Source: a virus
Direction: 5' to 3' (one strand)
IMG/VR virus record: IMGVR_UViG_3300038403_000006
Coordinates: 1-25,496 of that record
Length of the DNA: 25,496 bases
Shown here: piece after piece, positions 121 to 25,496 of the stretch
Position numbering within the stretch: position 1 is the stretch's first letter
How the letters are laid out: every line of letters begins with the position of its first letter
Translations under genes and position numbers: made by a program
Notes under the pieces: model-generated
What the model saw: the letters and a program-made list of their open reading frames with translations, nothing else
What the model was told of the DNA's origin: nothing
Databases searched by the model: none

Positions 121-2421
121 TCATCCGCTCAAAGAATTGGTGACGACCTTTCCCCGGTCTTCCGGCTTGGTATTCAGGAAGGTATTGAAGTTACCCGTCC
201 AGCCCTGTACCCCGAAATGGCTGATTGTTGCGTTGGGGTAGATAAAGAGGGGTACGCCCATGTTCGTGAGTCTATTTGAGAAACAATAGTCCTCTCCCAC
301 GAAGTCTCTCGGTTCCTTCAGCTTCTCGAACCTTTCTTTAAAGGGGGTCATGTCCAGATGAGAACCATTCTTCTTCATCTCTTCATGAATATCCCTTAAT
401 AGATTAACCTCGGGTTCCCGGTCTATCCCACAGGCGAAAAACTCCACTTGGGGTATTCTTGCCTCCGGTATCGGGTGAGTGTCCCCGTAGTGATTCATGG
501 GGTAGAACTCGATATATCTCTCAAGGACCGACCTTTTGATCCTCAAGAACCCCCCGGCAAGACGGGAGGCTTTTATCAGAGAAGACCCGTCAGGCATGGG
601 AATACCGATAAAGTGGGCGTTAGGGGTATCTCTTTCAATGATCTCGGGCTGGGAGGTCCAGAGGTCCCATTTGTTCTTGACTGGGTAGCTTCCACCAATC
701 ACCGGCTCTGGCCTGAACATGATATCTATAAAGGCTCTTGGGTCCCATGCCATGTCGGAGTCGATGAAGAAAAGATCGGTCGCCCACGGATCTTCCAGGA
801 AGTTCATGCACATGGAGTTTCTGGCCCTGTGTACATAAGAGTCTCCAGATAGGTCCATGAACTCCCACTGGATACCATGCATTGTTAAAAGTCTGGTGGT
901 CTCCGTCATAGACTTTATATACGGAGAGAAGCCCTTCAGTTCATAAAAGGGTGTGGCGATGACGACTTTAGGCATCGGCCTGTAATAAGGCTTCTGGGCG
1001 TTGTAATACTGCCTTTTAAGGTTCTTCGCCTGAGCCATGTTCAAAAGGCTCTGATTCGCCCCATGAATCCGGGTGTGTGTTAGGGGTTCTTCTATGATCT
1101 TGCAGTTGTATCTTGGAAGAAGCTTGAGATACATCTCGTAATCGGAAATCACCCCATGGGAGGGGTCCCAACCCCCGACTTCTCTCAAAGCGGAAGTCCG
1201 GTACATCCCTATACCAAAATAAACATTCCCCAACCTCAGGAGATTCATCCAGTCGTTAGCTGAAGGAAGATTCGTAGCCTTCCTGATGGTCTTTAAAGGA
1301 TGGGGTTCGGTGTGAGGTTTCCCATCCTCGGTCATGAAGTCGTTCTGGGAGGCAACATACTCAAGAAACGGGTCCTTTTTGAATTCCTCTCTACACTTCT
1401 GGATGAAGTCGGGACTCATGGTGTCGTCTGCTGAATAGGAGATGAAGAACTCTCCATTTGCGATCTTCAGCATCTTGTTCACCGTGTTCATGTGACCGAT
1501 GTTTTCTTCCGACCGGAAGAACTTGATCCTGGGATCGGGGAAGTCCTTTAGAACCGAATGAGGGTCATCCTTAGATCCGTCATCGCAGATCAGGACTTCA
1601 AAGTTCTGGTCGGTCTGGGCGAAGAGGGCCCTTAAGGAGTCTCCAAGGTACTTGGCGTGGTTGTGTACGGGTATCGCAACGGTCACCAACCCATCACATC
1701 TCGGTACCTGTAGGGGATGCTCCTGTCTAACCCTTTTAAGTTCCGCATCAAGCTTTTCGGCGTTCTGGAGAGTCCGGGTACAGATCGTCTTGTGTCCCGG
1801 AACCTCGTTCATGAACCGATAAGGAAGAATCCTTCCCTGATGCTTCTCGAAAAGGGATAGGAACCATTCATGGTCCGAGAAGGCGGTCAGGTTGTCATCG
1901 AAATACCCAATGGAGTCGAATAGAGACTTCCTCCACAACGCAGATGCTCCGCCTATAGGAATACCTTCAAGCAGAAGAAAGCACTTGATCCAATGCTCTC
2001 TAGACCTGTTATGGGCTTGGTAGGCGTACTGCTCCCAGGATGGGACTTCTCCCATCTTTTCATTTCCCGGAACCCCCCAGACACAATCTATCTCCGGGTG
2101 TTCATCGAGATACTTGACCTGAACTTCAAACTTCCTCTCCCAGATGAACTCATCACAGCCTAAAGACTGGATGAACTCGCCTGTAGCGTGTTTGTAGGCC
2201 CAGTTTGCTCCATGAGGAATGCCTCTATTCTTATCAAACCGGTGAAAGATGAATCGTGGGTCGTTAAAGGCATCCACCACGGGTTTGATAGGAACCGTTG
2301 ACCCGTCGTCAACGACGATACACTCCCAGTCGGTGAAGGTCTGCTTCTGGATGGACTCCAGAGTTTGCTTCAGAAGCTCCGGCTGGTTAAGGCATGAAAC
2401 ACAAGCTGATACGCGGGGCAT
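121..2421 (-). CDS. Three-domain glycosyltransferase (GT-A type, family-2-like)
   Basis: This 766-residue protein looks like three glycosyltransferase units in one chain. Domain 1 (about 1-235) opens with the GT2 pattern SACVSCLNQPELLKQTLES, with DDGS at 38-41, GCDE at 88-91 and a catalytic-type SDHEW near 182-186. Domain 2 (about 244-470) repeats it with VTVAIPVHNHAKYL, CDDGS at 279-283 and SADD at 330-333. Domain 3 (about 484-766) is more divergent, starting KVVIATPFYELKG and holding the DxD-like FFIDSDM at 551-557 and a late EDYCFSNRL. GT-A enzymes of this type transfer a sugar from a nucleotide sugar in the cytoplasm; acceptor and sugar cannot be read from sequence. AAAGGGA precedes ATG 2421. 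A terminator lies between it and the head genes, so it is probably expressed separately or by read-through. No membrane segment is evident. Confidence 0.88.
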   Translation of the reverse strand: MPRVSACVSCLNQPELLKQTLESIQKQTFTDWECIVVDDGSTVPIKPVVDAFNDPRFIFHRFDKNRGIPHGANWAYKHATGEFIQSLGCDEFIWERKFEVQVKYLDEHPEIDCVWGVPGNEKMGEVPSWEQYAYQAHNRSREHWIKCFLLLEGIPIGGASALWRKSLFDSIGYFDDNLTAFSDHEWFLSLFEKHQGRILPYRFMNEVPGHKTICTRTLQNAEKLDAELKRVRQEHPLQVPRCDGLVTVAIPVHNHAKYLGDSLRALFAQTDQNFEVLICDDGSKDDPHSVLKDFPDPRIKFFRSEENIGHMNTVNKMLKIANGEFFISYSADDTMSPDFIQKCREEFKKDPFLEYVASQNDFMTEDGKPHTEPHPLKTIRKATNLPSANDWMNLLRLGNVYFGIGMYRTSALREVGGWDPSHGVISDYEMYLKLLPRYNCKIIEEPLTHTRIHGANQSLLNMAQAKNLKRQYYNAQKPYYRPMPKVVIATPFYELKGFSPYIKSMTETTRLLTMHGIQWEFMDLSGDSYVHRARNSMCMNFLEDPWATDLFFIDSDMAWDPRAFIDIMFRPEPVIGGSYPVKNKWDLWTSQPEIIERDTPNAHFIGIPMPDGSSLIKASRLAGGFLRIKRSVLERYIEFYPMNHYGDTHPIPEARIPQVEFFACGIDREPEVNLLRDIHEEMKKNGSHLDMTPFKERFEKLKEPRDFVGEDYCFSNRLTNMGVPLFIYPNATISHFGVQGWTGNFNTFLNTKPEDRGKVVTNSLSG

Positions 2422-5592: not shown

Positions 5593-7860
5593 TTACACTG
5601 GCCCCCACGGAGAACTACTGGTGCCAAGCCCAGTAACCGCTATACCCACGACCGAGGTGATATCCACCCCCATTGGGAAGCTTGAGACACCGACAGGAAG
5701 ACCAAAGGACGACACCCCGACCCTACCCACCCCCAATGTCCCTGCTGCGGTTGTGACTAATGGCGACCCGTAGAAGGAGGTCACATCCACCGACCCTACT
5801 GAGACCGATTGGCTCGAAATCGAGAGGCTTGAGAAAGTGACGGTCGATGTGCTGTTGTTCGTCAGTCCAAGGTCGAAGTAGGTTGCGGGATAACCGGCAA
5901 AGGTCGTCACCGCAGCCGTATCCCGGTAGGAAGTGACGTTAACGCCTATCGGGTTGGAGGAAATCCCGACCGCGAGACCAAAGGAGGAGACCCCGACTCT
6001 CTGGTCAATGGAGGAGACGCCCACTCTTATGCCGAAAGAGGATACGCCGACAGCCCCCACGCCCAAGACTCCGGCGGCAGTCGTAACAGCCCTCGATCCA
6101 AAGAATGTGGAGACATCTACCGAAAGTTTGCCCTGAGTCACCGTCACCGCATTACCTGAGAATGAAGTAACGTCCACCGATCCGACCGATACCGATTGAC
6201 TGGAGATCGAGAAACTAGACAATGCGACAGTCGAGTTGTGGCTGGAGATGTATTGAAGGTCGAAACTCGCAGCCAACACTCCTGGGTAGTTCGTCACCGC
6301 TCTCGTCCCGAAAAACGAAGTTACATCCACCGATCCCGAGAAGGACACGCTCGACATCACCGTGGAGATGCTGAAGGAGGATAGCCTCACCGTGGAGTTG
6401 TGAGAGGAGATGTACTGGAGATCCATGCTTGCTGCGAGGACCCCAGGATAGTTGGTAACAGCCCGAGTAGCGAAGAACGAGGTCACATCCACCGGAGCCG
6501 ACATCGTGGTAACTGCAACACCGATATTGAGTGAGGAAACCCCCACTCTCTGGTCTATGGAGGAAACACCAACTCTTGAATTGAAGGTGGTGACTCCAAC
6601 TCCGATAGCCATCGAGGAGACGCCAACCGGAAGTCCGAAGGACGAGACGCCGACTCTGCCGACGCCAAGTGTTCCGGCTGCGGTCGTTACCACTCCAGAA
6701 CCCCAGAAAGAAGTGACATCCACAGACCCCACGGTAACTGAACCGAGTGGGAGGGAACTTGCGGTTCTGGCGGTCCCGAATATCTTATAAGTTACAGGCC
6801 CGGAAGAGGTAGAAGTCAGATTATCGAAGAAAACCCGTCCAGTTGACGCTTCACTACTGGCAATCATTCTTTGCTGCCAGAATCCCAGATTCGCATCGTT
6901 CATGATGATGGTGGCCCCCGTGAGAGAGCCACTAGGGAAGTCATAGCCACCAGAACGGAGCATCAGGGTGGAGATGGCGGTAGATTGTGCCGCCCCTTGG
7001 TCGATGATGTTTACCCACGGAGCGGAACTACCACCACCTGTAAAGGTATCCGAAATATTTTGTGCGGCAACGTCATCACCGGCAATTTGGATAGCATTGA
7101 CATCAAGTAACCCCGGTGCGCTGGTAATAATCCCATCACCATAGAAGGAGGTCACGCTCACCGGAACACTCATGGTGGTGACTCTCACTCCTATCGGATT
7201 GCTCGATATGCCCACCGCGAGACCGAAGGACGACACTCCAACTGCTCCAACGCCGAGAACACCTGCCGCTGTAGTGACTGCTCTCGAACCAAAGAAGGTG
7301 GAGACATCTACCGTGAGTTTTCCTTGCGTCGTGACAAGACCCACGGCGTAGAAGGAAGTCACATCGACGGGGGCCGACATAGTAGTGACGGCGACACCAA
7401 TCGCCATGGAAGAAACACCCACCGGGAGACCGAAAGAGGAGACTCCGACCGGCAATCCAAAGCTGGAAACCCCTACCCTGTTGGCGTTCACGACCGAGGA
7501 TTGATTGTTCGTCCTCGTAATCTCCAGCTCCATGACGACCGGAGCCATGGAGGGATGCCCATACATATGAACCGCACAAGTCGAACCCGCAGCCCAGACT
7601 CCGTTTGGAAGGCAGAACTGGTACCATCCCCTCATGAAGGTAGAGTTGATCTGCAGGAATTGACCTGAAGACCATGTTCCGAGCGTCCCTGTAGATACCA
7701 GGGTCACGCTGGAGGTCGAGGTCATGTCAGAACGGTAGTAGTAACTGGAGAAGGTCGAGATGACTAGATTCGCCAGACCTGATCCGGTAGAGACGGTCGC
7801 ATCCTGAACGAAGATGGGGACCAATTCTTCTATGGTTCCGACTTGACGACTTATTTTCAT
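5593..7860 (-). CDS. Large nonapeptide-repeat virion protein (fibre or adhesin-like)
   Basis: A 755-residue protein. Residues 1-128 are non-repetitive. From residue 129 on most of the chain is built of nine-residue units of the form V-[GADR]-V-[ST]-[ST]-x4: about fifteen VGVSS or VGISS units (VGVSSFGLP, VGVSSMAIG, VGVSSIDQR, VGISSNPIG), several VxVTT units, and about eight VDVTSF segments that open longer 20-45-residue modules (VDVTSFFGSRAVTTAAGVLG). A non-repeat insert (about 260-370) interrupts it. Such regular V/S/T strands predict an elongated beta-solenoid or fibrous stack. No catalytic residues are evident. It overlaps the upstream gene by ATGA. Its position inside the head and virion block suggests a virion surface protein such as a fibre; this is inference. 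The C-terminus ends SSSPWGPV. Confidence 0.7.
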   Translation of the reverse strand: MKISRQVGTIEELVPIFVQDATVSTGSGLANLVISTFSSYYYRSDMTSTSSVTLVSTGTLGTWSSGQFLQINSTFMRGWYQFCLPNGVWAAGSTCAVHMYGHPSMAPVVMELEITRTNNQSSVVNANRVGVSSFGLPVGVSSFGLPVGVSSMAIGVAVTTMSAPVDVTSFYAVGLVTTQGKLTVDVSTFFGSRAVTTAAGVLGVGAVGVSSFGLAVGISSNPIGVRVTTMSVPVSVTSFYGDGIITSAPGLLDVNAIQIAGDDVAAQNISDTFTGGGSSAPWVNIIDQGAAQSTAISTLMLRSGGYDFPSGSLTGATIIMNDANLGFWQQRMIASSEASTGRVFFDNLTSTSSGPVTYKIFGTARTASSLPLGSVTVGSVDVTSFWGSGVVTTAAGTLGVGRVGVSSFGLPVGVSSMAIGVGVTTFNSRVGVSSIDQRVGVSSLNIGVAVTTMSAPVDVTSFFATRAVTNYPGVLAASMDLQYISSHNSTVRLSSFSISTVMSSVSFSGSVDVTSFFGTRAVTNYPGVLAASFDLQYISSHNSTVALSSFSISSQSVSVGSVDVTSFSGNAVTVTQGKLSVDVSTFFGSRAVTTAAGVLGVGAVGVSSFGIRVGVSSIDQRVGVSSFGLAVGISSNPIGVNVTSYRDTAAVTTFAGYPATYFDLGLTNNSTSTVTFSSLSISSQSVSVGSVDVTSFYGSPLVTTAAGTLGVGRVGVSSFGLPVGVSSFPMGVDITSVVGIAVTGLGTSSSPWGPV
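5600..7476 (-). repeat. Protein-coding 27-bp repeat array (nonapeptide units)
   Basis: The DNA encoding the VGVSS/VxVTT units repeats with a 27-base period, but copies of the same peptide use different codons: VGVSSFGLP near 5665-5720 and near 7420-7475 differ at many third positions. The repeat is therefore conserved as protein rather than as recent DNA duplication. Composite modules such as FFGSRAVTTAAGVLGVGAV and LQYISSHNSTV occur two or more times. Confidence 0.85.
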
Positions 7861-21586: not shown

Positions 21587-22648
21587 ATGGACCGCTTCAG
21601 AATAGATTCCACTAAGATCCAGTTCCACCCCCAACGGGTGGCGCAATGGTTGGACTCGGGAGACGATTGGGAAAAGGCGAAGAAGGTCTATCCCCCGTAC
21701 TGGGAAATTACTACCTCTGCGGCATGTAATCATCGCTGTACCTTTTGCTCAGTGGACGCGATAGGGTACCCCGCAATACTGATAGAGCCACTGATTATCA
21801 TCCAGCGCATGAAGGAAGCGAAAAGCCTGGGAGTTAAGTCGGTAATGTACGCGGGAACCGGTGAACCCCTGAGTCACAAACGTATTAACACCATTGTTGG
21901 CGCGGTGATGGATATAGGACTCGATCAGGCATTTACTACTAATGGCGTTCTGCTCGATAAGCTCGCCCGACCGGAGTACTGTTCATGGATAAAGGTGAGC
22001 CTCAACGCTGGTACTAAAAAATCCTATGCCCAGATCCACCAGACCGATGAAAAGGATTGGGATAAGGTCTGGGCCAACATCAAAGACTTAATGAAACGAA
22101 GGGGGGGGTGTTCTGTCGGTATCCAGTGCGTTGTCCTCCCCGAGAATTACATGGACATGGCGAATCTAGCTTACCTAGCCAGAGATGCCGGGGTGGATTA
22201 CTTTGTGATGAAACCCTATTCACAAGGCACCTTCTCAATTATCCAAAGGCACGATATCAATTACGCGGAGATGGAAGATGAACTTCAGGCGGTCACGCGA
22301 TTCTCTACCCCCGAGTTTCAAGTCGTTTACCGGGAGAATGCGGTCAAGCAGGAGATGGAAGACCATCACTATGAGAAATGCCTCGCCACACCGTTCTTCT
22401 GGACCTACTCAATGGCAGATGGAAGGGTATTCACTTGCTCAGCCCATCTTCTGGACGAAAGATTCTGTATCGGAAACCTTAATGAGCAGAGTTTTCAGGA
22501 GATTTGGGAGGGTGAGGGGCGGAGGAAACAATGGGAACTGATGAAGGAATTTGACATCAAGCAATGTCGCAAGAATTGTAGGATGAATTCCGTCAACATC
22601 TATCTTGACCAGTTGAAGCACCAAGTCCCGCATGTCAACTTTATCTGA
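21587..22648 (+). CDS. Radical SAM enzyme with SPASM-like C-terminus
   Basis: A 353-residue protein. EITTSAACNHRCTFCSVDA contains CxxxCxxC at 47, 51 and 54, which binds the 4Fe-4S cluster that cleaves SAM; GTGEP at 90-94 is the SAM-contact motif; TTNGVLLDK and WIKVSLNAGT are further barrel strands. The last 85 residues hold the cysteine set CLATPFFW, FTCSAHLL, RFCIGN and DIKQCRKNC, characteristic of SPASM-type auxiliary clusters. The length is normal for the family. SPASM enzymes modify peptides, sugars or small molecules; the substrate is not predictable. It starts the metabolic cassette and its end overlaps the ThDP gene by 17 bases. Confidence 0.9.
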   Translation: MDRFRIDSTKIQFHPQRVAQWLDSGDDWEKAKKVYPPYWEITTSAACNHRCTFCSVDAIGYPAILIEPLIIIQRMKEAKSLGVKSVMYAGTGEPLSHKRINTIVGAVMDIGLDQAFTTNGVLLDKLARPEYCSWIKVSLNAGTKKSYAQIHQTDEKDWDKVWANIKDLMKRRGGCSVGIQCVVLPENYMDMANLAYLARDAGVDYFVMKPYSQGTFSIIQRHDINYAEMEDELQAVTRFSTPEFQVVYRENAVKQEMEDHHYEKCLATPFFWTYSMADGRVFTCSAHLLDERFCIGNLNEQSFQEIWEGEGRRKQWELMKEFDIKQCRKNCRMNSVNIYLDQLKHQVPHVNFI

Positions 22649-23165
22649 TTACATCATTGAATTCCTGGAAGACAAGGGAATCGAGCATTGCTTCACCGTC
22701 TCCGGTGGGGGTTCGATCTTTCTAGACGATGCACTTCAACGAGCAAAGAGGATGAAATATGTCTGCACCCACCATGAACAGGCAGCGGCGTATGCAGCAG
22801 AGGGATATGCACGAGCAAGGAATGCAGTTGGCTGCTGTATTGTCACTTCTGGACCGGGCGGCACTAATGCTGTATCGGGAGTTGGGGCAGCGTTCCTTGA
22901 CGGCATCCCGGTCTTCTACATCTCGGGCCAAGCCTTCCTCAAGCACACAATCACGGGGAAAGAAGGACTCAGGCAGCTCGGGGTCCAGGAAATAAACATC
23001 ATCGACATTGTGAGACCGATAACGAAATTTGCTCTCATGCTTGCTAACGCATCGCGTGACTATATCGACTACAACTTGAACAAGGCTTGGGAAGTGATGA
23101 CGACCCCGAGAATGGGTCCTGTTTGGCTGGATATACCCGGAGATATCCAGAATGCGCGTATCTGA
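22632..23165 (+). CDS. ThDP-dependent enzyme, N-terminal (PYR) part
   Basis: A 177-residue ORF: SDYIIEFLEDKGIEHCFTVS, GGGSIFLDDA, then YVCTHHEQAAAYAAEGYARA with the catalytic-type glutamate (E49) that activates the ThDP ring, then CIVTSGPGGTNAVSGVGAAF and GPVWLDIPGDIQ. This is the PYR domain of the acetolactate-synthase-like family. A normal enzyme is about 550 residues; here the stop comes just after the PYR domain, and the rest follows in another frame with a 14-base overlap. The pair totals 576 residues. Both ORFs keep their motifs, so a working two-subunit enzyme is plausible. Confidence 0.88.
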   Translation: MSTLSDYIIEFLEDKGIEHCFTVSGGGSIFLDDALQRAKRMKYVCTHHEQAAAYAAEGYARARNAVGCCIVTSGPGGTNAVSGVGAAFLDGIPVFYISGQAFLKHTITGKEGLRQLGVQEINIIDIVRPITKFALMLANASRDYIDYNLNKAWEVMTTPRMGPVWLDIPGDIQNARI

Positions 23166-24351
23166 AATTGCCGATCTTCTCTTAAAAGCGAAACGTCCTC
23201 TCATCCATATCGGTCAAGGAGCGAGACATGCTGAGAAAGAATTTAGACAACTCATCGAACGTCTATCCCTTCCCTATGTCACGGCGCGTAACGCGAACGA
23301 TATGGGATATGCAAAAGACCCTCTCTACATTGGAAGACCTGGAACATTCGCTCAACGCGGAGCTAACTTCGCAGTCCAGCTTTGTGACCTCTACCTGGCA
23401 ATTGGAACCCGACTATCGCTTACTCAAACTGGATACAACTCTAAAGACTACGCCCGAAACGCCAGAATCATCCAAGTCAACATCGACCAAGCGGAGCTGG
23501 ATAAAGGCACTCTCCGAGATCCTGTCTCGATTCGGGCTGACTCACGGGAATTCCTCGCCGAACTGCTGAAGCACATAGACCGCACACCGGACTGGTCAGT
23601 ATGGTTGAAGCGTTGTCAGTACCTAAGGGACAAGTATCCGGTCTGTCTGCCTGAGTACGAGAAGGAGAAGGATTATGTCAACTCGTTCTATCTCATTGAC
23701 ACGCTCTCAACGCTTGCGACACCGGAAGATATCATTGTCACGGACATGGGTTTCGCATTCCAGAACACGCATCAAGCTTGGAAGGTCAAGCAGGGCCAAC
23801 GATTGTTTACGAATTGTGGTCTTGCGCCGATGGGGTGGGGCTTACCTGCTGCCATCGGAGCGGCTACGGGAACTCTCAAGAGAATTCTTCTCATTACAGG
23901 TGATGGTGGCCTGATGATGAACATCCAAGAACTCGCCACGGCTGCTCATCACAATCTCAACCTTAAGATATTCCTCCTGGATAACGGCGGTTATCTTACA
24001 ATCAAGCAGACGCAGCAATTGGGCTTTGAGGGAAGGCTGATGGGAGTGAACAAGGAGACCGGGCTTTCATTCCCTCATTGGGCTACGGTCATGGCTGGAT
24101 TCGGGATAGGATGGGAATTTCTGAACAACAATCACCGCAATCATTACGGCAATCCCTTCAAGGATGGATTAAGGAGCATCCTCAGGACAAAGGGGCCTTA
24201 TGTGACTATCTGCCGCATGAACCCAGACCAGCCACAAGCCCCGAGATCTGTGAACAGGCGAAACCCGGATGGGACAATGAACCCCACCAAGCTGGAAGAT
24301 GCCTTCCCATTTTTGGACCCAGCAGAAGTTGAAGAAATGATGAGACTATGA
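23152..24351 (+). CDS. ThDP-dependent enzyme, central and PP parts
   Basis: A 399-residue ORF starting MRVSEIADLLLKAKRPLIHI. Residues 1-140 are the central (TPP_enzyme_M-like) domain with IGQGARHAEKEF and LCDLYLAIGTRLS. Residues about 175-345 are the PP domain with MGWGLPAAIGAATG (228-240) and the ThDP diphosphate/Mg motif GDGGLMMNIQELATAAH (from 250) ending in LLDNGGY. Relatives use pyruvate-type 2-keto acids in decarboxylation or acyl-transfer; acetolactate synthase itself is one case, but the substrate cannot be named. It begins inside the end of the PYR ORF, one frame on. It is followed by the DJ-1 gene with ATGA overlap. Confidence 0.9.
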   Translation: MRVSEIADLLLKAKRPLIHIGQGARHAEKEFRQLIERLSLPYVTARNANDMGYAKDPLYIGRPGTFAQRGANFAVQLCDLYLAIGTRLSLTQTGYNSKDYARNARIIQVNIDQAELDKGTLRDPVSIRADSREFLAELLKHIDRTPDWSVWLKRCQYLRDKYPVCLPEYEKEKDYVNSFYLIDTLSTLATPEDIIVTDMGFAFQNTHQAWKVKQGQRLFTNCGLAPMGWGLPAAIGAATGTLKRILLITGDGGLMMNIQELATAAHHNLNLKIFLLDNGGYLTIKQTQQLGFEGRLMGVNKETGLSFPHWATVMAGFGIGWEFLNNNHRNHYGNPFKDGLRSILRTKGPYVTICRMNPDQPQAPRSVNRRNPDGTMNPTKLEDAFPFLDPAEVEEMMRL

Positions 24352-24893
24352 AAGCCCTTATTCTCACTGGAAAGCTCGCAACCGACCAAGAGGTTTTCTA
24401 TCCCCTTTACCGCATGGACGAGGAAGGATGGGGGGTAGATATCGCGGTGAGGGGTGGGAAAGAAGTTCTTGGTGAGAAGGGAATCCGCATCGTTCCTACC
24501 CGGGACATTGATGATTCCCTCTATGGGGAATCCTACGACCTCCTGATTCTGCCCGGGGGGGCGAAGTGCATGGAATACATGAGACAGGACCAAGAGATAT
24601 TAAGGTATATCTCGGCCTTTACCAAGGTCATAGGCTCAATCTGTCATGGCGCGCAACTCTTGATCTCATCGAATCGAGTGAGAGGACATAGGATATCGGG
24701 TTACTATTCCATCAAGGACGATATCCGAAACGCGGGTGGTACATTTGTCGATGCTCCATTTGTAACTTCGGGGAAGATTGTCTCGTCACCTCATTACAAA
24801 TATCTGGGACCATGGATGAAGGAAGTGATTAGGGTCACTCAAATACAGCCACAGCCTCGCGGGGTGGGAGAGGGAGACTTCGGTGTTGAATAG
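24348..24893 (+). CDS. DJ-1/PfpI-family protein
   Basis: A 181-residue protein: MKALILTGKLATDQEVFYPL, then YRMDEEGWGVDIAV, YDLLILPGGAKC, VIGSICHGAQLLI and FVDAPFVTSGKIVSSPHYK. The Cys99-His100 in the nucleophile elbow (SICHGAQ), the early acidic residue E15 and the LPGG loop are the DJ-1/PfpI hallmarks. Family members are amidase-, glyoxalase- or redox-type enzymes, and some act in small-molecule pathways; the role here is unknown. It overlaps the ThDP gene by ATGA and the next ORF by eight bases, so it is translated as part of the cassette. Confidence 0.88.
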   Translation: MKALILTGKLATDQEVFYPLYRMDEEGWGVDIAVRGGKEVLGEKGIRIVPTRDIDDSLYGESYDLLILPGGAKCMEYMRQDQEILRYISAFTKVIGSICHGAQLLISSNRVRGHRISGYYSIKDDIRNAGGTFVDAPFVTSGKIVSSPHYKYLGPWMKEVIRVTQIQPQPRGVGEGDFGVE

Positions 24894-25496
24894 TCCTTTC
24901 TACAAAGCGTGGGTAGCGATGGAAGCTGCCTATCCTCCCCCTACTAGAGTCAGGATGCTCCGGTATTGGGGCTGGCCTGAGTTCGAGAAGATGGTGCTTA
25001 ATCCAGACTTCGATTTCATCTGGCAGATGGTGACGACCCTATACGCCGGAGATGTATATATCATCGGAGAGGCGTTTCCCAAGGAATTCATGCGGGAATT
25101 AAAGGAGAAGGCATTTCACTATGGAAAATCCCGACCCTCCGAATTCCACAAGATGCTTGAAGGGACACCCGACTTTCATCGGATCATCGACCTCGAAACT
25201 GGCAAGAAATACTCCTTTCAGGTTTGTAAGCATTCCTGCTTCTTCTACCCCTGGAACGACGACCCCCTCGGTATCTTCCCTACCATCTATTCAAGATGGC
25301 GGGTCATCAAATGGCTGATGGGTTTACCAAAGGATGCCTATGAAAGAAACACCCCCAAAGACGGAGTAGTTGACCGGATTCAGATTGCTCAGTATCCGTC
25401 CAAGATCGGATTCCTTGAGCCTCACTCAGATCCCTATCTCCACCAGCGGCTATTCTTCTCGGGTTATATGACAGAGAGGGGGATGGACTATCAGGG
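24886..25496 (+). CDS. HxD-containing protein, 2OG-Fe(II) oxygenase-like (cut by right edge)
   Basis: An open frame runs from TTG 24886 (AGGGAG nine bases before) to the right edge, about 203 codons. An ATG eleven codons in (24919) is the alternative start. The protein has FYKAWVAMEAAYPPPTRVRM, FDFIWQMVTTLYAGDVYIIG, DDPLGIFPTIYSRW and then RIQIAQYPSKIGFLEPHSDP. A PHSDP motif (His180, Asp182) preceded by an R-x-x-YPxxxGFLEPH strand matches the iron-binding H-x-D of 2-oxoglutarate/Fe(II) oxygenases; the second histidine and arginine would lie past the edge. So the call is tentative. It overlaps the DJ-1 gene by eight bases. Confidence 0.6.
   Translation, partial: MNSPFYKAWVAMEAAYPPPTRVRMLRYWGWPEFEKMVLNPDFDFIWQMVTTLYAGDVYIIGEAFPKEFMRELKEKAFHYGKSRPSEFHKMLEGTPDFHRIIDLETGKKYSFQVCKHSCFFYPWNDDPLGIFPTIYSRWRVIKWLMGLPKDAYERNTPKDGVVDRIQIAQYPSKIGFLEPHSDPYLHQRLFFSGYMTERGMDYQ

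Follow-up and report, generated by a model that had tools for sequence, protein, structure and literature searches.

The window, the whole stretch of DNA analysed here, is the entire IMG/VR record IMGVR_UViG_3300038403_000006, which is 25,496 bases long. Its right-hand end (positions 21587–25496) is filled by five forward open reading frames (ORFs) that overlap in succession by 17, 14, 4 and 11 nt (Table 1). The first-pass annotation had listed here a radical SAM/SPASM protein, a split ThDP enzyme, a DJ-1/PfpI protein and an HxD oxygenase-like protein; all of these ORFs are in place, and the first three types are supported by Pfam. That annotation had also described the run as translationally coupled. 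It is the ORF overlaps that argue for such coupling, because the Shine–Dalgarno-like motifs of the cassette ORFs are weak, no stronger than those at other ATGs of the window, and therefore uninformative. The contig stops inside the oxygenase ORF, so the cassette may continue beyond it.

Table 1. Cassette ORFs and glycosyltransferase gene of the window
Feature	Position	Strand	Basis
Radical SAM/SPASM protein, 353 aa	21587..22648	+	Pfam Radical_SAM and SPASM above cut-off
ThDP enzyme, N-terminal PYR domain as a separate ORF, 177 aa	22632..23165	+	Pfam TPP_enzyme_N
ThDP enzyme, central TH3 and C-terminal PP domains, 399 aa	23152..24351	+	Pfam TPP_enzyme_M and TPP_enzyme_C
DJ-1/PfpI protein, 181 aa	24348..24893	+	Pfam DJ-1_PfpI
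Predicted 2OG-Fe(II) oxygenase, N-terminal part of at least 204 aa, open at contig end	24883..25494	+	Relatives, fold
Glycosyltransferase protein, 766 aa: two GT2 domains and C-terminal phrog_1574 region	121..2421	−	Domain matches

The window is clearly of phage type, as the first reading had assumed: its left part carries on the minus strand the genes for a portal protein (1.5e-114), a terminase large subunit (3.9e-55) and a major head protein (1.4e-52). Also on this strand lies a 755-aa ORF (5593–7860) of repeated VGVSSFGLPVGVSS-type motifs, with a tail-fibre- or adhesin-like appearance.

Enzymes encoded by the run

The first protein matches both Radical_SAM (5.5e-16) and SPASM (7.7e-9), and its CX3CX2C cluster motif is present as CNHRCTFC. 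An ortholog with 49% identity is encoded by phage contig L041; the radical SAM protein of phage L010 was not counted as an ortholog, because its alignment with the window protein covers 79 residues only. A second radical SAM-like ORF of L041 (16118–17080) has a Hint (intein-type) domain immediately after the CX3CX2C motif.

The three domains of a ThDP enzyme all exceed their Pfam cut-offs and are spread over two ORFs, with TPP_enzyme_N (7.6e-33) in the first and TPP_enzyme_M (1.7e-31) and TPP_enzyme_C (3.3e-28) in the second. The PYR half, which is 59% identical to its counterpart in phage L002 and 51% to that in phage L003, retains the catalytic Glu in HHEQ, and the PP half retains the ThDP/Mg cofactor motif GDG...N as GDGG...DNGGY. 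The solved structure nearest to the TH3–PP half is JanthE (8rph, equated with JanthE via its citation in the JanthE paper), at 223 bits vs 153 bits for the next, acetolactate synthase isozyme 1. For the fused enzyme of phage L004, the scores are 431 bits for JanthE and 269 bits for the next solved protein. JanthE belongs to the YerE-like lyases and couples 2-oxo acids to ketones; enzymes of the YerE-like group serve in making branched lipopolysaccharide sugars such as yersiniose (PMC12188165, PMC12247030). By this wide margin the window enzyme would be a JanthE-like, ketone-accepting lyase rather than an acetolactate synthase. It has in common with the JanthE/YerE-like lyases the same three domains, the catalytic Glu, the cofactor motif and relatives in glycan clusters, but it consists of two polypeptides and shows the canonical GDG in place of the CDG of JanthE.

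The DJ-1/PfpI protein scores 111.8 bits (3.8e-32) against a Pfam cut-off of 26.6, carries its Cys nucleophile elbow as ICHG and is 57% identical to that of L002. Its closest solved chains include PfpI/PH1704 and DJ-1D, and it misses the NCBIfam cut-off of the PfpI/YhbO deglycase–protease subfamily TIGR01382 (114.7 vs 139.05 bits).

The fifth ORF is 52–55% identical to the oxygenases of L002 and L004. The window part has no match in Pfam, PHROG or NCBIfam, its full-length relatives have no Pfam match at E ≤ 1, and no related PDB sequence was found for them. The HxD motif is present in the window and invariant across the aligned relatives; the distal His is seen in those relatives that reach that far, and its position lies beyond the contig end in the window. 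We modelled the L004 relative from a nine-sequence alignment (pLDDT 75.7; a four-row model had reached 58). A Foldseek search with this model gave 342 PDB matches at E ≤ 0.001, the best 50 of which all have the 2OG oxygenase (DSBH) fold. As the TM-scores are modest (~0.41–0.48), we claim membership of the 2OG-Fe superfamily only, and the ranking among 2OG folds is uninformative. Judged from its full-length relatives, the fifth ORF is thus a predicted 2OG-Fe oxygenase by fold, in line with the initial HxD-based reading. The family is scarce: a pattern scan of the genome collection confirmed five members, and matches were found in 1/400 genomes of the phylum of the SAR202 genome, 1/395 of the phylum of genome G002 and 9/297 of the Pelagibacter order, some of the latter distant. 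By sequence, it appears to be a new 2OG oxygenase family that lies outside present libraries and lacks a Pfam match.

Division of the ThDP gene in phages

Between the PYR and TH3 domains of the window enzyme, about 25–30 linker residues are missing, and the two ORFs are read in different frames. Because these residues are absent as well, we rejected a single-base sequencing error as the cause of the split. Phage L003 is split at the same PYR/TH3 junction. In L010 the gene is distributed over PYR, TH3 and PP ORFs, with an HNH endonuclease (NUMOD4, HNH_3) after the PYR ORF; in L005 an HNH endonuclease sits between TH3 and PP, and the break in L011 holds a NUMOD3-bearing ORF with HNH-like residues that is probably also an endonuclease. 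The gene is therefore broken in five of ten phage copies, those of L002, L004, L009, L041 and L045 being fused. The break in the window contains no endonuclease ORF. Self-splicing introns in the breaks of the relatives were rejected, an Rfam search of these breaks having given no match.

Bacterial JanthE-like copies, hand-counted from matches above 145 bits, lie in frames of at least 500 aa in 28/28 cases in the Pelagibacter order and 17/19 in the phylum of the Acidobacteria genome (about 45/47 together); the two short copies may be contig ends. The difference from the phages has a Fisher p of 0.001, which is only a guide because the compared rows are related. In the ThDP tree the window groups with fused copies, and L003 groups with L010. 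A single origin of all PYR/TH3 splits was rejected by the AU test (p = 2.6e-5 with four rows and 1.4e-5 with three), in a tree with long branches and with groups named after a first tree. These sequences suggest that the split has recurred in unrelated phages.

Free-standing homing endonucleases can divide a phage gene into halves that still function, as in Aeh1 nrdA (PMC2988022). The ThDP gene resembles that system in that one enzyme is encoded by two ORFs whose products would need to reassemble, and in the HNH endonucleases found in the breaks of L005 and L010; it differs in that the window's break is free of an endonuclease. Because of that absence, an endonuclease origin of the window's split is suggested by analogy. 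The split enzyme could be inactive. In a different arrangement, the bacterial contigs L012 (4174–6777) and L016 (1023–3584) each encode a cupin–ThDP fusion whose cofactor motif is degenerate, reading CEDR instead of GDG, and which lies next to a second ThDP gene; these fusions are possibly non-catalytic partners.

Gene company in relatives

The oxygenase occurs in four phage records (the window, L002, L004 and L005), each of which also carries the DJ-1 gene and the JanthE-like ThDP gene; L002, L004 and L005 additionally encode a cupin. The first-pass annotation had proposed looking for the gene set in other phages and in bacterial glycan clusters, and the trio recurs in both: in these three other phage contigs and in glycan clusters of L012 (SAR202) and L016 (Acidobacteria), whose genes include a methyltransferase, SDR, NUDIX, DegT aminotransferases, FkbM and TIGR04372 glycosyltransferases. 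The comparison turned up no characterised operon whose product is known, and the sequence flanking the cassette is phage, not bacterial chromosome.

Contig L041, which is of phage type by its terminase, portal and head genes, lacks the oxygenase and carries in order the radical SAM ortholog, a Tad2-like gene, an NAD-epimerase, HldE II, HldE I, a GmhA-like isomerase, DJ-1 and a cupin–ThDP fusion. GmhA-like isomerases also occur in L002 and L005, and HldE-like genes are located upstream of the oxygenase relative in bacterial L027 and near that in bacterial L015. It is because of these HldE/GmhA-like genes in the relatives' neighbourhoods that we use the label 'heptose-type'; the window itself contains no heptose gene. 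Not all bacterial relatives link the trio: in L014 and L015, the oxygenase occurs without ThDP or DJ-1 within the stretch covered.

Several further features of these neighbourhoods were observed. The Tad2-like (Thoeris anti-defence 2) gene of L041 (9092–9373) has the radical SAM ortholog on one side and the epimerase on the other. HldE domain II of L041 (10902–11348) changes frame close to its beginning, through either a slip or a real break, and adjoins a 220-aa ORF with an HNH-like look and no Pfam match. A HemN gene above the NCBIfam cut-off is present in the SAR202 glycan cluster (L012, 19012–20445), and HemN-like ORFs occur near the oxygenase in L014, L015 and L028.

A possible sugar pathway and its precedents

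What might this run of genes do? The initial suggestion of a pathway that makes or modifies a small molecule or sugar fits the glycan and heptose-type clusters in which the relatives' genes are found, and, judging by these sequences, the five genes most likely help to build or modify an unusual sugar. Rather probably, in our estimate, the cassette was taken from bacteria and represents one piece of a surface-glycan cluster whose enzymes make or alter an activated sugar of an unusual kind, probably heptose-type and carbon-branched; the phage hallmarks of the window and L041, and the GmhA and HldE genes of the latter, agree with a phage surface-glycan cassette. In such a pathway, the radical SAM/SPASM enzyme, together with epimerase- or SDR-type relatives, would prepare a keto-sugar or donor. 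The PYR and TH3–PP polypeptides would then form one YerE/JanthE-like lyase, which would decarboxylate a 2-oxo acid and join the acyl unit to the ketone, creating a branch with a tertiary alcohol. The 2OG-Fe oxygenase might hydroxylate or oxidise the product, the DJ-1/PfpI protein might handle a reactive carbonyl intermediate or by-product, and glycosyltransferases would finally place the sugar either on the host surface glycan, blocking superinfection, or on the virion. The 766-aa GT2 protein of the window is a possible user of the sugar.

Other readings were considered. Radical SAM/SPASM, ThDP and 2OG oxygenase genes are frequent in natural-product clusters, and the Tad2 family, a member of which follows the L041 radical SAM ortholog, binds signalling nucleotides; a non-glycan small-molecule or natural-product pathway, for example for a signalling or defence-interfering metabolite, is nevertheless unlikely, in that no carrier protein, synthetase or precursor-peptide gene was seen and the relatives' neighbourhoods are dominated by sugar genes. 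About equally unlikely is phage DNA hypermodification, in which the 2OG oxygenase and the radical SAM enzyme would act on bases or base-linked sugars. 2OG oxygenases and glycosyltransferases do modify the DNA of other phages, thymine-7-hydroxylase ranked first among the 2OG oxygenases in the Foldseek search, and the cassette of L002 lies among replication-type genes. Against this, bacterial glycan clusters contain these oxygenase, ThDP and DJ-1 genes as well, no base-modification gene was seen within the window, and a ranking among TM-scores that all fall at ~0.41–0.48 carries no information. Decay of the cassette into cargo without present function, the split ThDP gene being a broken pseudogene, would account for the lost linker and the shifted frame, but seems improbable: the halves are open throughout with a tidy 14-nt overlap, retain 55% identity and their catalytic and cofactor residues, have lost a linker that one sequencing slip would not explain, and share their break with other phages. 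Finally, ordinary amino-acid or pyruvate metabolism with incidental neighbours is very improbable, for although the best NCBIfam names of the ThDP halves, scanned separately, are acetolactate synthases, their scores (139.8 and 172 bits) are far under the curated cut-off of 538.35 bits and stay below it even when added together, the enzyme is 33% identical to IlvB vs 54–56% to the JanthE-like set, no regulatory subunit was found, and the sugar-cluster company is conserved.

The sugar pathway that we favour has precedents, since phage cassettes combining sugar and radical SAM genes are already known as a kind. The hypervariable regions of pelagimyophages contain LPS-type and radical SAM cassettes for glycan synthesis, with rfaE (HldE), radical SAM proteins and glycosyltransferases (PMC7029224); the part of that paper drawn on here names no ThDP, DJ-1 or window-type oxygenase gene. 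Use on the host surface, the view held there for other phages, is suggested by analogy for the window phage. The complete podovirus ctQWt234 (MW202801) has an annotated cassette with radical SAM (24% identical to that of the window), glycosyltransferase and phytanoyl-CoA dioxygenase genes in one run; in contrast to the window, no ThDP or DJ-1 gene is annotated in the stretch, the oxygenase is of another family, and the cassette is located among structural genes. The idea that the cassette might be previously undescribed in phages hence falls for the general type and stands for the exact combination: neither this gene combination nor the JanthE-like ThDP enzyme nor the oxygenase family was found in deposited phages. 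Matches to the ThDP half in isolate phages were set aside, being 20–33% identical and mostly IlvB-like, in records that resemble host contamination; those in plasmids are only ~30–35% identical and of acetolactate synthase type. What appears new, by sequence comparison, is the recurring set of JanthE-like ThDP, DJ-1 and oxygenase genes, the oxygenase family and the repeated fragmentation of the ThDP gene.

As a bolder possibility, we tentatively propose that phages harbour a mobile module for a surface sugar that is undescribed, carbon-branched and possibly derived from a heptose. This module would include a new 2OG oxygenase family, and its ThDP enzyme would have been cut repeatedly by homing endonucleases, at the domain boundaries, into enzymes of two or three polypeptides that still work. 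The cassette points to an uncharacterised bacterial sugar pathway that is also carried by phages. It offers natural split forms of a C–C bond-forming enzyme that is currently an engineering target for the production of tertiary alcohols, and the recurrent breaks provide a direct test case for the activity of fragmented phage enzymes.
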